Below are positions 519 through 38,920 of a stretch of 64,000 nucleotides of DNA, one piece after another. Source of the stretch: Mycobacteroides saopaulense (GTDB taxonomy: Bacteria > Actinomycetota > Actinomycetes > Mycobacteriales > Mycobacteriaceae); assembly GCF_001456355.1 (NCBI RefSeq), contig NZ_CP010271.1:3348001-3412000 (forward strand). The letters are read 5' to 3'. Positions within the stretch are counted from its first letter, which is position 1; every line of letters starts with the position of its first letter. A program made the translations under genes and the position numbers. Under the pieces are notes generated by a model, which was not told where the DNA came from, ran no database searches, and saw only the letters and a list, made by a program, of their open reading frames with translations.

Positions 519-1241
519 ATGAGTCATTGGGATGTAGTCATCCGCATCGCCCTGGGTTTTGGCCTGGGGTGCGCCATCGGCATCGAGCGGCAGTGGCGCG
601 CCAAGAACGCCGGCCTGCGCACCAACGCGCTGGTATGCCTGGGCGCGACACTATTCGTCATCATGGGCGCCTACAGCTTCCATGGACCCGGTGCCGACCC
701 CACTCGGGTTGCGGCACAGATTGTTTCGGGCATCGGCTTCCTCGGTGCCGGTGTGATCATGAAGCAGGGCGCCACCATCACCGGCCTGAACACCGCCGCC
801 ACCATGTGGGCAACCGCCGCCGTGGGAGCACTGGCCGGCGGCGGGATGTACGAGGTGGCGATCCTCGGTGCGGCAGCCATCGTGGTGGCCAACCTGCTCC
901 TACGCCCACTGGGCCACCTGCTTGACCGCCAGCCGGCCACTGGCCGCGAGTCCGAGCCCGCCGCCTATCTCTTCGAGGTCACCACCACCGACGAGACCGA
1001 GGCGCATATTCGGGCACTCACCGTGCAGGCGGTCAGCAGGCCGGAATTCGCGCTGCAATCGGTGCGGTCCTATGACGTCGAGGACGGTAAGCATGTGCGG
1101 GTCGTCGCCAAGCTGAGTGCCGAGCAGCGCAACGACTCACTGCTGGAGTCCGCGGTGAGCAGGCTGTCGATGGAACCCGCGGTCTCGTCGGTGCGCTGGC
1201 ATGTGGATCGCGAAGAAGAGGTCGAAGCCAGCGAATGGTAA
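519..1241 (+). CDS. mgtC: MgtC/SapB family membrane protein
   Basis: A 240-residue protein starting MSHWDVVIRIALGFGLG. The first 145 residues hold about four to five membrane helices and the family hallmarks GIERQWRAKNAGLRTNALV, GIGFLGAGVIMK and the GLNTAATMWATAAVGAL stretch. The last 80 residues form a soluble ACT-like domain. MgtC proteins in intracellular pathogens aid growth at low Mg2+ and in macrophages, by modulating ATP synthase or membrane potential rather than by carrying Mg2+ (family knowledge). The ATG at 519 is chosen over an upstream start at 378 because the conserved sequence begins there and an AGGA site precedes it; the upstream extension would run through the folded leader. 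corA follows 19 bases later. Confidence 0.9.
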   Translation: MSHWDVVIRIALGFGLGCAIGIERQWRAKNAGLRTNALVCLGATLFVIMGAYSFHGPGADPTRVAAQIVSGIGFLGAGVIMKQGATITGLNTAATMWATAAVGALAGGGMYEVAILGAAAIVVANLLLRPLGHLLDRQPATGRESEPAAYLFEVTTTDETEAHIRALTVQAVSRPEFALQSVRSYDVEDGKHVRVVAKLSAEQRNDSLLESAVSRLSMEPAVSSVRWHVDREEEVEASEW

Positions 1242-4678: not shown

Positions 4679-5410
4679 TCATTGGGGGAACCCCCCGCTT
4701 GCGGGGGCCTTGTCGGCGAGCGCGTTGGCCTCCACGAACGGAGACAACAGCCGCGCCATGTCCAGCGCCACGTCATGGTCGGATTCCGGCGGCATCGACA
4801 CGTAACTGATCGCCAGCCGCACAATCGACCGCGCCAGGATCGCCGCGTCCTCCTCGCTGGCGGCCACCCAACTGTTCATGAACGATTCGGTCAGCCGCGC
4901 CGAGGCCGGCACCACGATCAGCGCGCTGTCCACGGTGACGATGCGCATCAGTTCGGGCTTGGCCTCACCGGTGATCAGCGAGATGACCATGGGATCGGCG
5001 GCACTCTCGGCGAAGAAGTCCGAGAAGCCCGAATGCAGGGCACCGTGGATATCGCCGACATGGGAGTAGATCGCGTCGCCGACGGCATCCACCAGGCGAT
5101 GTGCCAGCCTCAGTGCGTACCCCTGGGCCAGACCCTGCCGGGATCCGAACTCGTTGTACAGCGTCTGACGGCTCACCCCGGCCCGACGGGACACATCGGA
5201 CATGGTGACCGCCGACCAGTCGCGCTGGCGCAGCAGGTCACCGAGTGCATCGAGGACCGATTCGCGAAGCAGCGCCCGCGCGGCCTCGGCATACGGCACT
5301 CGTGGCGTCACACCGGGGAGCCTGGCAGGGGCGCCGGCAGACGTCAATGCGTCCCCGCCTGGCAGCACGTTGCTCGCGGATGAGCCGCTAGCGCGAAGAC
5401 CAGCCGTCAT
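4679..5410 (-). CDS. TetR-family regulator of the alkB-rubredoxin operon (AlkX-like)
   Basis: A 243-residue TetR protein with a helix-turn-helix at about residues 58-85 ([21 protein letters not shown]) and an all-helical ligand domain. It is the last gene of the alkB-rubA-rubB-tetR operon and overlaps rubB by 4 bases, the arrangement of Rv3249c, which is reported to repress alkane hydroxylase genes. The first 35 residues, [16 protein letters not shown] and on, are not typical of the family and contain the GLRASGS-coding repeat also seen in PurK, Maf and, in a variant, WbbL. The last codons form a CCCCCGC/GCGGGGG hairpin. Confidence 0.85.
4692..4707. terminator. GC hairpin at the end of the TetR gene
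   Basis: CCCCCGC (4692-4698) and GCGGGGG (4701-4707) form a 7-bp stem with a TT loop, immediately followed on the minus strand by GGTTCCCCC. It overlaps the last coding codons and the stop of the alkB operon's final gene. Termination is a guess because no T-run follows closely. Confidence 0.35.
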
Positions 5411-5598
5411 GGCCGCGCGATCTCCACCATCACGAAGTCGGCCTTGGCCGCCCCGCAGTCCGGACAGCTCCAGTCCTCGGGAATGTCATCCCAGCGGGTG
5501 CCCGGCTCGATTCCGTCCTCCGGCCAACCGATTGCTTCGTCGTACTGGAATCCGCACTGCATGCATTCGTACAGCTTGTAGTCGGTGTCGTCGCTCAT
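5407..5598 (-). CDS. rubB: Rubredoxin RubB
   Basis: A 63-residue rubredoxin with both iron-binding pairs: CMQCG near residue 12 and CPDCG near residue 45. It carries one Fe(Cys)4 centre and passes electrons to the alkane hydroxylase AlkB. It overlaps rubA by 4 bases upstream and the TetR gene by 4 bases downstream, so translation of the three is probably coupled. Confidence 0.95.
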
Positions 5599-20661: not shown

Positions 20662-21576
20662 TCACCCTCCTTGCTTGTCCCGGCGCCGATTGGCGCGGAT
20701 GGCCGCTCGCACCACGATCGCGGATCGCGCCGCCAGCGCGCCCCGAATGCTCCAGCGCAGCGGCGCCTGCCACCAGTGCGGATGCCGGTCCGATTGAAAA
20801 ATGTAGACGCTGTCGTGGTGCGCGGTGAGGCTGCGCGCCGGATCACGCCCGGCCGCATGGCCTTTCGCATGCACAACTTCCGAGCTGGGGGCGTACACGT
20901 TCTGCCAACCGGCACGTGCCAGCCGGTCCCCGAGATCGACGTCTTCCATGTACATGAAGTACCGCGCGTCGAACCCGCCGATGGAATCGAACGCCTTGCG
21001 CCGAAGCAACAGGCAAGAGCCCGAGAGCCATCCCACGACGCGTTCGGACGGTTCCATCCGGTCCTGGCGGTAGGCCGCGGTCCACGGGTTGGTGGGCCAC
21101 ACCGTGCCCAGCAGTGCGTGGAGTCCGCCCCCGGTCAGGGTCGGCATCACCCGCGCCGAGGGATACACGGTGCCGTCCGGCTCACGAATCAGCGGACCCA
21201 GCGCACCCGCGGCGGGCCAGCGCTGTGCGACCTCCAGCAGCGCATCGATGCTTCCCGGCCCCCACTGCACATCGGGGTTCGCGACCACGATCCATTCGGC
21301 GTCGGGGTCGATCTGCGCGACTCCCAAGTTGGCGGCCTTGCCATAGCCGACATTGCCTCCGGTGCGGAGCAGCTCGACATCGGGTTCCTCGGCAGCGGCC
21401 TCGGGGGCGCCATCCGTCGAACCGTTGTCGGCAAGGATCACCCGCAGCGGCAGCTCCGTGGCATGCCGCAGCGTCCGCAGGAAACGGTGCAAGTGCTCGC
21501 CGGGCGAGTACGTCACCGTCACCACGGCGACCTGCTCGGTCGCCGAAGGGCCGCTTGCGCGATGAGGATCCAGCAC
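20662..21576 (-). CDS. wbbL: WbbL, dTDP-Rha:GlcNAc-PP-decaprenyl rhamnosyltransferase
   Basis: A 304-residue GT2 glycosyltransferase that adds L-rhamnose to decaprenyl-PP-GlcNAc, forming the linker between peptidoglycan and arabinogalactan; essential in mycobacteria. Motifs are VVTVTYSPGEHL, ADNGSTDGAPEA, VVANPDVQWGPGSIDALL and YFMYMEDVDLGDRLARAGW. The first 14 residues MLDPHRASGPSATE are not conserved with Rv3265c and contain an RASG-coding variant of the repeat found in PurK, Maf and TetR; an internal start cannot be excluded. Confidence 0.93.
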   Translation of the reverse strand: MLDPHRASGPSATEQVAVVTVTYSPGEHLHRFLRTLRHATELPLRVILADNGSTDGAPEAAAEEPDVELLRTGGNVGYGKAANLGVAQIDPDAEWIVVANPDVQWGPGSIDALLEVAQRWPAAGALGPLIREPDGTVYPSARVMPTLTGGGLHALLGTVWPTNPWTAAYRQDRMEPSERVVGWLSGSCLLLRRKAFDSIGGFDARYFMYMEDVDLGDRLARAGWQNVYAPSSEVVHAKGHAAGRDPARSLTAHHDSVYIFQSDRHPHWWQAPLRWSIRGALAARSAIVVRAAIRANRRRDKQGG

Positions 21577-21591
21577 GGTGCTAGAGGGTAC

Positions 21592-26568: not shown

Positions 26569-27825
26569 TTAGCGCTCATCAGCATGTGCCCGCCAACCAT
26601 CCGTCCATATCCCGTGTGACAACCAGTGCGCCGCGCGCTCGGCGCGCTCGCGGACCTCCGCGACATAGTGCGGGTCGGCCAGCGAACCATCCACGCGGCC
26701 TTGAATATTCACATGCCCGAGCTTGCGGCCCGGGCGCTCGCCCTTGCCGTACAGATGCACCTTCGCCTCCGGGATGCGGCCCATCAGGTGGTGCATGCGC
26801 TCGTCGAGCGACATCGCCGGCGTCTCCGGCGCACCCAGCACGTTCGCCATCACGGTGACGGGGGCCAGCGGCGCGGTGGAGCCGAGCGGGTAATCCAGCA
26901 CGGCACGCAGGTGCTGCTCGAACTGCCCGGTCCGCGCGCCGTCCATGCTCCAATGCCCGGAATTGTGCGGTCGCATCGCCAACTCGTTGACCAGCAGCCG
27001 ACCGTCGTTGGTTTCGAACAGCTCCACCGCCAGACACCCGGTCACACCGAGTTCGTCGGCGATCCGCAACGCCAGCTGCTCAGCTTCCAGCGCCAGGTTC
27101 TCGGGCAATTCGGGCGCCGGAGCGATCACCACGGCGCAAATCCCGTTCCGCTGAACGGTTTCCACCACCGGCCAGGCGGCACCCTGCCCAAAGGGAGAGC
27201 GGGCCACCATGGCCGACAGTTCGCGCCGCATGTCCACGCGCTCCTCGGCAAGCAGCTCCACTCCGGCGGCCAGTTGCTCGGCGGCCACCGCACGCGCCTC
27301 GTCGAGATCATCGGTGATCCACACCCCGCGACCGTCGTATCCGCCACGCACCGCCTTCAGCACGACCCGGCTACCCGTCTCCGCGGCGAATCGCTCGACA
27401 TCGGCGACGGTTCGGACGTCGGCGAAACCAGGCACCGGCGCGCCGATGTCCCGCAGCTTGCGCCGCATGAACGTCTTGTCCTGCGCGTAGATGAGGGCGG
27501 ACGGCGGCGGCTGCACGTTGACGCCCTCGTTCTGCAGGGTTTCCAGGAACGCGGTGGGAACATGCTCGTGATCGAAGGTGACCACGGTGGCGTCCTTGGC
27601 GGCACGACGCAGGTCGTCCAGGTCGGTATGCGAACCAAGGACGACATCGGGGGTTACTTGAGCCGCCGGTTCATCGGCGGCATGGGCCAGCACCCGCAGG
27701 GTCTGACCGAGAGCGATCGACGCCTGATGGGTCATCCGGGCCAGCTGACCGCCACCGATCATGGTGACCACGGGAGTCGCGGACACAGCTGAGCCGCTTG
27801 CGCGAAGACCATCAGACACAGACAT
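26569..27825 (-). CDS. purK: N5-carboxyaminoimidazole ribonucleotide synthase
   Basis: A 418-residue ATP-grasp enzyme that carboxylates AIR with bicarbonate and ATP. Motifs include MIGGGQLARMT, VLKAVRGGYDGRGVW, LLVNELAMRPHNSGHWS and the C-terminal HLYGKGERPGRKLGHV. The family sequence starts at about residue 18 (VVTMIGGGQLAR). The preceding MSVSDGLRASGSAVSATP is extra and carries the GLRASGS-coding repeat. Length otherwise matches Rv3276c. Confidence 0.95.
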   Translation of the reverse strand: MSVSDGLRASGSAVSATPVVTMIGGGQLARMTHQASIALGQTLRVLAHAADEPAAQVTPDVVLGSHTDLDDLRRAAKDATVVTFDHEHVPTAFLETLQNEGVNVQPPPSALIYAQDKTFMRRKLRDIGAPVPGFADVRTVADVERFAAETGSRVVLKAVRGGYDGRGVWITDDLDEARAVAAEQLAAGVELLAEERVDMRRELSAMVARSPFGQGAAWPVVETVQRNGICAVVIAPAPELPENLALEAEQLALRIADELGVTGCLAVELFETNDGRLLVNELAMRPHNSGHWSMDGARTGQFEQHLRAVLDYPLGSTAPLAPVTVMANVLGAPETPAMSLDERMHHLMGRIPEAKVHLYGKGERPGRKLGHVNIQGRVDGSLADPHYVAEVRERAERAAHWLSHGIWTDGWRAHADER

Positions 27826-37188: not shown

Positions 37189-37195
37189 TCCGCGC

Positions 37196-38920
37196 GTGAC
37201 TCCTGGTCTTCGCGCAAGCGGTTCGTCCGCCTTTGTCCTGGCTTCCGCGTCACCGGCTCGCGAGCGGATCCTGGAGCAGGCCGGTCTCAATCCGGTCGTC
37301 ATCGTGTCGCATGTCGACGAACATCTCGTCATGGCGACGCAGCCCTCGGGCACCACCCCGGCACGTGCCGTAGAGGTGCTGGCCTGTGCCAAGGCCTTTG
37401 ACGTCGCCACGACCCTCGCCGGTGAGGTGGCTGCCGACGCGGTGGTGCTGGGTTGCGATTCGCTGCTCCTGCTCGACGGCTCGTTGCAGGGCAAGCCGGG
37501 AACCGTCGAGGAGGCGCGGCGCCGCTGGGCCCTGATGGCCGGACGCTCAGCCGAGCTGCTCACCGGACACTGTCTGGTACGGGTCATCGACGGCAAGCCT
37601 GTCGCGCGCGTGAGTGAAACACGCTCGACCACTGTGCGTTTCGGTTCGCCTTCGGCCGAGGATCTCGAGGCGTACCTGGCCACGGGCGAGCCGCTCCAGG
37701 TGGCCGGGGCATTCACGCTCGACGGCCTGGGAAGCTGGTTCGTCGACGGCATCGACGGCGATCCGTCGAACGTGATCGGGGTCAGCGTGCCGCTGGTCGG
37801 TCGGCTGCTGGACAAGCTCGGCCTGTCCGCCTCGTCGCTGTGGGTTCGCCACGAAAAGCATGTGCCACCAAAGCCGTTCCATCCGGACACGCCCACCGTG
37901 ACCCCGCTGCCGCCACACATGGTGGCACTGGTCGACTCCCTGCTGATGGTCGGACCCACTCAGCAGCAGGAGTTCAAGGATGCCCAGGGCAACCCGATTC
38001 CGCACATGGCGTCGGTCAATGCCAGCTTCCAAGCCGCCTGCCGCGACGATTCCTTCGACCTCGGTGTGCACACCAACCGTGGTGCCTGTCTGTGGACCGG
38101 CGACTACCTCAACACCGGCGACGGCATTCAGTTGATACCCGTCGATCCCGCGAGCCCGTCGGTTGCACTGGGCGGGCGTTCCAAACCCCTTGTGCTGCCC
38201 GCGGACGCACAAGACGGCGCCCGGCTGCTGCCCACCGGGTCGGCGGAGTTGGCACACCGGTCGCTGTTGTTCGCCTCCTGCATTCCCTCGCCCGGGTGCA
38301 GCACCTTCGTGTCTGCCGACACGACCGTGTACGACGTCAGTGAGCCGGGCAAGTCGTCCTACCGGCCGATGGGCGTCATGGCTGGCATCTCCCAACCGAG
38401 TGGGGTTGCCGCGCCGGGCCGACGGATGCTGGTGGCGGGAAACGTCGGAACCGGCCCCTGGGCACCACGTTTCGCGTGGCTCACCCCTCCGATCGACGAT
38501 CCGGCATTTCTGGACTCGTCGGCATGGGAGAAGGTCGGAGAGATCAAGGGCGGCGGAGATCGGGAGAACCAGTTGTTCGCCCTGCCCGCAGGCGGTTTCG
38601 GACTGCTCGATGCGAACGGTTCGGGCGATGCGCATATCGGTCTCAAGCTCTTCCGGACTCCACAGGAACTGGTCAGCGAGCCCATGACCGTCCTCATCCG
38701 CAACGATCCGTCCGACCCGCGGCCGGACGACCCATTCATCTCCCGCGACCCACACAAGCTGCTGCAACCATACGGACCGCAGGTCGTCAAGATCACCATG
38801 AACAGCGACGGCACTCAAACGCTGTATTTCCTGGTGAGCCAATGGGTTACCGATCCGACGCGCGCCTACCGGACAATCCTGTACTCCATTGTGTTGGCGC
38901 CGCAATACCTGAGCATCTAG
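37196..38920 (+). CDS. maf: Maf-family nucleotide pyrophosphatase fused to a large C-terminal domain of unknown function
   Basis: A 574-residue protein in one uninterrupted frame. Residues 12-216 are a Maf/HAM1-fold nucleoside triphosphate pyrophosphatase (FVLASASPARERILEQAG, VVLGCDSLLLLDG, LQGKPG, VAGAFTLDGLGSWFVDGIDGDPSNVIGVSVPLVGRLL), which hydrolyses non-canonical or excess pyrimidine NTPs. The Rv3282 protein stops at this point (222 residues). Here about 350 more residues follow, starting PFHPDTPTVTPLPPHMVAL and rich in Gly, Pro and beta-type segments (HTNRGACLWTGDYLNTGDG, DAHIGLKLF), with no membrane helix. I do not recognise that part. No ribosome site precedes the internal ATG at 37919. 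The N-terminus [12 protein letters not shown] carries the repeat element. Confidence 0.85.
   Translation: MTPGLRASGSSAFVLASASPARERILEQAGLNPVVIVSHVDEHLVMATQPSGTTPARAVEVLACAKAFDVATTLAGEVAADAVVLGCDSLLLLDGSLQGKPGTVEEARRRWALMAGRSAELLTGHCLVRVIDGKPVARVSETRSTTVRFGSPSAEDLEAYLATGEPLQVAGAFTLDGLGSWFVDGIDGDPSNVIGVSVPLVGRLLDKLGLSASSLWVRHEKHVPPKPFHPDTPTVTPLPPHMVALVDSLLMVGPTQQQEFKDAQGNPIPHMASVNASFQAACRDDSFDLGVHTNRGACLWTGDYLNTGDGIQLIPVDPASPSVALGGRSKPLVLPADAQDGARLLPTGSAELAHRSLLFASCIPSPGCSTFVSADTTVYDVSEPGKSSYRPMGVMAGISQPSGVAAPGRRMLVAGNVGTGPWAPRFAWLTPPIDDPAFLDSSAWEKVGEIKGGGDRENQLFALPAGGFGLLDANGSGDAHIGLKLFRTPQELVSEPMTVLIRNDPSDPRPDDPFISRDPHKLLQPYGPQVVKITMNSDGTQTLYFLVSQWVTDPTRAYRTILYSIVLAPQYLSI

Follow-up and report, generated by a model that had tools for sequence, protein, structure and literature searches.

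A dispersed 33-base repeat of mycobacteria, probably mobile, found mostly at gene starts

Very short dispersed repeats without genes are exemplified by the REP elements, which are associated with IS200-type (RAYT) enzymes. The palindromic elements of Rickettsia insert in frame into protein genes; they are longer than the 33-base unit described here, and palindromic. In the coupling sequences of Tn916-type elements, target bases are found at one junction and foreign bases at the other, over a short overlap. BOX and RUP elements are likewise longer and have another sequence and structure. MIRU measure roughly 50-100 bases, and MIRU typing relies on tandem copies, which are common to MIRU and the 33-base unit. 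We know of no described mechanism that accounts for the spread of 33 bases without genes or terminal repeats. MIRU have been described as apparently mobile short repeats of mycobacteria that go into start codons and contain an open reading frame coupled to the gene (PMC12548453), and the BOX and RUP elements of pneumococcus are small interspersed repeats present in many copies (PMC3049150). In the partly displayed text of the open literature, outside which most subscription journals lie, no description was found of the core of this unit, of its peptide LRASGSS or of related topics.

The window, which is the whole stretch of 64,000 nucleotides that was analysed, contains four copies of the unit, each at the start of a gene:

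37195..37227, + strand: unit in maf; core at 37207-37227 with 2 mismatches; reads GLRASGSS
27788..27820, - strand: unit in purK; core at 27788-27808 with 1 mismatch; reads GLRASGS
5379..5411, - strand: unit in the TetR gene; core at 5379-5399 with 1 mismatch; reads GLRASGS
21545..21577, - strand: diverged unit in wbbL; core at 21545-21565 with 3 mismatches; reads HRASGPS

The initial annotation had placed a 20-mer at 5382-5401 (-), 27791-27810 (-) and 37205-37224 (+), and these positions were confirmed. The diverged wbbL copy that it described is also real, its 21-base core lying at 21545-21565 (-) with 3 mismatches. Translations read by eye agree that all four copies are in frame near a predicted start, as (G)LRASGS or HRASGP, in four unrelated proteins (Maf, PurK, TetR and a family-2 glycosyltransferase). 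A common frame and strand had also been claimed; this is correct for the four window copies and fails genome-wide, where 26 copies at starts have the orientation of the gene and 27 the opposite one. Two further sightings of the word were not sustained. At 4692-4707, the end of the TetR gene, no place matches the 21-base core with up to 6 mismatches, and the rmlD-LCP region has one place (22586) at 6 mismatches, a level that two further places of the window also reach.

The four copies differ in their occurrence among relatives. The maf unit is present in M. chelonae S00154 (G100) and absent from the genomes G129, G133 and G188. The purK unit was also found in G100 and M. franklinii (locus L116); no intact copy aligned in G188, and in G129 and G133 the stretch with the motif did not align. 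At the TetR gene, G188 has two units and G100 is without exactly 33 bases. The wbbL copy is old, because it is found, diverged to varying degree, in G100, G129, G133 and G188. The maf open frame itself (window 37196-38920, + strand) extends to 574 amino acids, with the Maf domain at residues 13-207 and no Pfam match at E 0.001 beyond residue 207; the long frame is a fusion, a read-through or a frame open by composition.

A count over the complete genome, which the initial annotation had suggested, revealed that its case was understated. The host genome, a single contig of 4,649,175 bases, has 79 matches to the 20-mer with at most 3 mismatches (42 on the forward strand, 37 on the reverse), whereas a control in which the pattern was read backwards matched at 1 place. 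At the same threshold, 75 copies were found in M. chelonae S00154, 152 in M. franklinii CV002 (G101), 43 in G129, 47 in G133 and 208 in G188. With at most 1 mismatch, the core was detected in 29 of the 59 other genomes of the genus that were sampled, and in 1 of 40 genomes of the same order. The exact core is present in at least 119 stretches from named genomes, and among 80 listed stretches 77 have mycobacterial titles and three are metagenome bins (actinobacterium or Actinomycetes). The sequence is a dispersed repeat of mycobacteria. Viral contigs contained 0 exact core matches; 11 plasmid records had short matches at E 1 or worse, none spanning 80% of the query. One distant genome of the genus (G002:C1) was found to have only 13 copies at up to 1 mismatch, plus arrays of 7 units (step 34) and 4 units (step 33); it also has nine Y1 transposase matches.

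These counts bear on chance or codon usage, by which the initial annotation might have been refuted. The genome count of 79 against 1 excludes such an origin, and 100 shuffled versions of the window yielded no match to the 20-mer with 3 or fewer mismatches. The core is also present in arrays predicted to be non-coding and, at other loci, on the opposite strand from the gene. The probability of this explanation is negligible.

Aligned copies delimit a unit of about 33 bases, in which a conserved 21-base core, TCTTCGCGCAAGCGGCTCATC, occupies positions 2-22. Flank preferences include G at position 0 and, more weakly, GAY at -3 to -1; further preferred bases are C at -11, G at -7 and, on the right, G at 26. 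Within a protein the unit can add about eleven amino acids (33 bases being 11 codons). Copies in gene orientation read GLRASGS, and those in the opposite orientation read DEPLARR, as at loci L009 and L194. Positions 1 and 23, which directly flank the core, are variable yet mutually complementary in 158 of 189 non-redundant copies, a set from which near-identical contexts had been removed beforehand. The pairs are C-G in 101 copies, G-C in 41, T-A in 15 and A-T in 1. Before redundancy removal, complementarity was found in 60 of 74 host copies and in 170 of 199 copies in other loci; a few amplified subfamilies may inflate the figure. The second-strongest pair of columns, the neighbours -3 and -2, carries less than half the information of 1/23.

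Other signs of secondary structure were sought in the unit. Two pairs suggested by the wbbL copy did not stand up: at 4-20, complementary bases were found in 2 of 5 double changes, and at 7-17 in 0 of 4. Some A-T and C-G cases at 7-17 occur in other copy listings, outside the double-change count, and may represent a weak effect. A hairpin reading was rejected, as ten 33-base strands folded no better than their shuffles (z -1.37 to 0.21), and no palindrome or stable fold was found among these ten. Proper terminal inverted repeats are missing from the unit, its inverted similarity being confined to GAYG...CATC.

Most copies lie at the beginnings of genes. When arrays were collapsed, the 74 copies gave 69 loci, of which 53 are within -60 to +75 of a predicted start; these starts come from a crude gene finder, whose training set was 29 open frames of the window, and not from an annotation. 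Stops account for another 8 loci and intergenic stretches for 6; the remaining two, L018 and L201, are inside genes, with the predicted start 138 and 195 bases away, respectively. For 2,716 control points the shares were 9.0% (starts), 5.2% (stops), 1.8% (between genes) and 84.1% (inside genes). The idea of a tiny spreading repeat at gene starts, raised by the initial annotation, is borne out by 53 of 69 loci against this 9.0%, together with presence and absence that differ among relatives. The ratio of starts to stops also exceeds that of the control, in a classification where start sites took precedence over stop sites. Depletion inside genes is as expected of any insertion. The excess at starts may come from target choice, CN-ATG and CN-GTG being compatible with C-NNN-G, or from N-termini that tolerate an insert more easily. 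Gene starts would be over-represented mainly because 33 bases there amount to 11 harmless codons or fall between genes, and the target fit would perhaps add to the excess. In L018, a match to ASdes, a small RNA family (RF01781), lies at positions 663-730 (-), some 770 bases away from the copy of the unit.

The strong excess at gene starts is also what would be seen with a conserved host signal serving translation initiation or acting as a small-RNA site or protein-binding site. Several results speak against this. Orientation at start loci is equal (26 versus 27), no RNA family matched at the motif in the 20 host loci scanned, and 30 of the 59 other same-genus genomes sampled have no core copy at up to 1 mismatch. 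Functional sites are expected to change more slowly than their surroundings. At sites shared by the host genome and G100, the core was found to have 34 differences in 861 bases and the flanks 913 in 23,414, or 3.9% each; in an earlier subset the values were 30 in 609 (4.9%) and 666 in 16,436 (4.1%). Since the core diverges as the flanks do, it is not maintained by selection; given this decay of individual copies, the identical cores found at many loci point to spread that is still going on. A host signal is highly improbable, and the translation or regulatory signal proposed at the outset is not upheld.

Comparison with the near relative M. chelonae S00154 provided direct cases of presence and absence. 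For 51 of the 77 host sites a counterpart was fetched from this genome (26 had none); 41 were shared and 10 different. Eight of the differing sites are without one 33-base unit in G100, three of these alignments having an additional nearby gap of 1 to 3 bases and L203 a split gap, and the other two lie in the L024 array region. In the reverse comparison, counterparts were found for 46 of 52 G100 sites, with 40 shared and 6 different, the differences being net 33, 33, 32 and 31 bases plus two in the L024 array region. A wider alignment listing has 45 rows with net differences of 0 to 61, many of which are arrays or poor alignments. G100, M. franklinii and D16R12 have no unit at the place of L194; G100 and D16Q13 have none at L016, and G100 and CBMA 271 none at L180. 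As the outgroup loci are equally without the unit, L180, L194 and L016 are gains in the host lineage. In the TetR gene, the two units of G188 and the exact 33-base deficit of G100 make loss in G100 the most likely course, so not all differences are insertions. The comparison of orthologues that the initial annotation had called for thus supports it: copies are gained and lost among close relatives, mostly as single 33-base units.

The TetR copy and the change of arrays by whole units are in keeping with a different history, in which all copies are ancestral and relatives differ by loss alone, for instance by slippage between short repeats. Against that history stand L194, L016 and L180, which are missing from both G100 and the outgroup loci, and the copy numbers of 43 to 208 within the clade. 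Loss alone is very improbable.

Tandem copies were found in 48 arrays with 70 steps, of which 52 are 33 bases, 10 are 32, 6 are 34, one is 31 and one is 45. By the predictions of the crude gene finder, each of the 10 arrays in coding sequence has steps divisible by 3, and none of the 9 arrays with steps of another size falls in coding sequence; this test of frame is weak because 29 non-coding arrays likewise step by multiples of 3. The M. franklinii genome G101 has two long arrays, C2:26798-27049 and C3:13-231, with 8 and 7 units listed and the same core variant in every unit except one. One of them touches the very start of its contig, so an array of this kind may break assembly. The L024 array region has two units and an inverted copy in the host genome; its counterpart in G100 (L326) has three units, and the inverted copy is apparently missing there.

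From these results, the repeat is probably a mobile mini-repeat with MIRU-like behaviour, of which one 33-base unit is inserted per event at C-NNN-G-like sites. Each insertion would bring in one unit at a site resembling C-NNN-G, and head-to-tail copies would later expand or contract, mostly by 33. The junctions were studied in 12 clean pairs, which all differ by 33 bases and were chosen by eye as clean, mostly for that difference. Among those excluded were L248/L130 (net 32), L236/L299 (net 33; 34 by eye), L298/L181 (31), the second copy of L324 (32) and L239/L138 (26). Breakpoints slide a few bases relative to the core, with 0-4 bases of junction homology. The five mismatch-free pairs have no single breakpoint in common, yet -10 or -7 is permitted in each; under best placement, with wide intervals, these two are permitted in 9 of 12 pairs and, with one extra mismatch, in 11. 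The pair L140/L303 does not fit breaks at -10 or -7. Constant length and sliding breakpoints suggest that a whole period is inserted. A full 12-base target duplication was not seen, nor was any constant duplication. By eye, L009 and L324 have target bases at the left junction and foreign bases at the right, and L182, L194 and L201 have foreign bases at the left and target bases at the right. Of the 12 pairs, 11 have complementary bases at 1 and 23; in the remaining one, L182, base 23 is the base of the empty site.

The main rival is template switching without an enzyme, in which a 3' end pairs through a few bases with a unit of the repeat, is extended by one period and then goes back to its own template, so that one period is inserted. 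Constant length, sliding breakpoints and 0-4 bases of junction homology would all follow, period-33 tandem arrays are available as possible templates, and flank identity at lag 33 is in excess by 0.43 base per site (z 3.3), which is real but small. However, no spacer of a new unit was found beside another copy, and template switching leaves both the 1/23 complementarity and the equal orientations at starts unaccounted for. It is a plausible account, with less than an even chance of being correct. Copying of the spacer from near flanks gave no signal, and no donor copy was identified through shared spacers, the slight excess of similar spacer pairs being partly due to start codons.

If the unit is instead moved as an element, its mobile form might be one 33-base unit, either a circle or one period copied from the repeat. 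Joining could occur through a brief staggered exchange spanning about 3 bases, which would leave the target NNN at one junction and the donor NNN at the other, with bases 1 and 23 paired in the mobile form only and a putative recombinase acting in trans. Taken alone, this exchange mechanism is tentative and rather more apt to be wrong than right; it is a model suggested by about a dozen events. An IS200-type/RAYT enzyme was considered and rejected, as PF01797 had no match in the host genome, although it matched in 11 of the 61 genomes searched. Two pairs of near copies enclose genes that look like housekeeping genes and not transposases, and no enzyme moving the unit was found.

If the mobile reading is right, 33-base units are able to spread without genes or terminal repeats and add short N-terminal peptides to enzymes, by which start-site annotation can be misled. 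The unit would then be usable as a presence/absence and copy-number marker in the clade, and the 1/23 complementarity would offer a concrete handle on the mobile form. The most far-reaching version is less likely than not: a self-spreading 33-base element among the smallest known, without a gene or proper terminal repeats, with a putative mycobacterial recombinase, required 1/23 pairing, insertion at C-NNN-G, loss of exact units and protein steps of 11 codons.

Compared with the described systems, the unit resembles other elements in single respects. The hosts of BOX and RUP are other bacteria. Like the Rickettsia palindromic elements it is found in frame, but it has no palindrome or stable fold. 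Its junctions, judged by eye and within wide breakpoint intervals, may resemble those of Tn916-type elements, whereas the unit measures 33 bases in all and comes with neither a gene nor a known integrase. Unlike REP elements and their RAYT enzymes, it goes with no Y1 transposase match in the host genome and no hairpin better than shuffles. The terminal inverted repeats and fixed target duplication of a MITE or insertion sequence remnant are missing from it. MIRU are similar in being a short mycobacterial repeat with start-codon placement (here 53 of 69 loci at starts) and gains and losses. They differ in that the 33-base unit is shorter, occurs in both orientations equally (26/27), has no gene-coupled open reading frame, and is inserted in frame or between genes. 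The 1/23 complementarity is a feature of the 33-base unit and is counted as a further difference, the two being set apart by description and not by sequence. Because the unit is shorter, free in orientation and without a coupled open reading frame, it is not filed as a MIRU.
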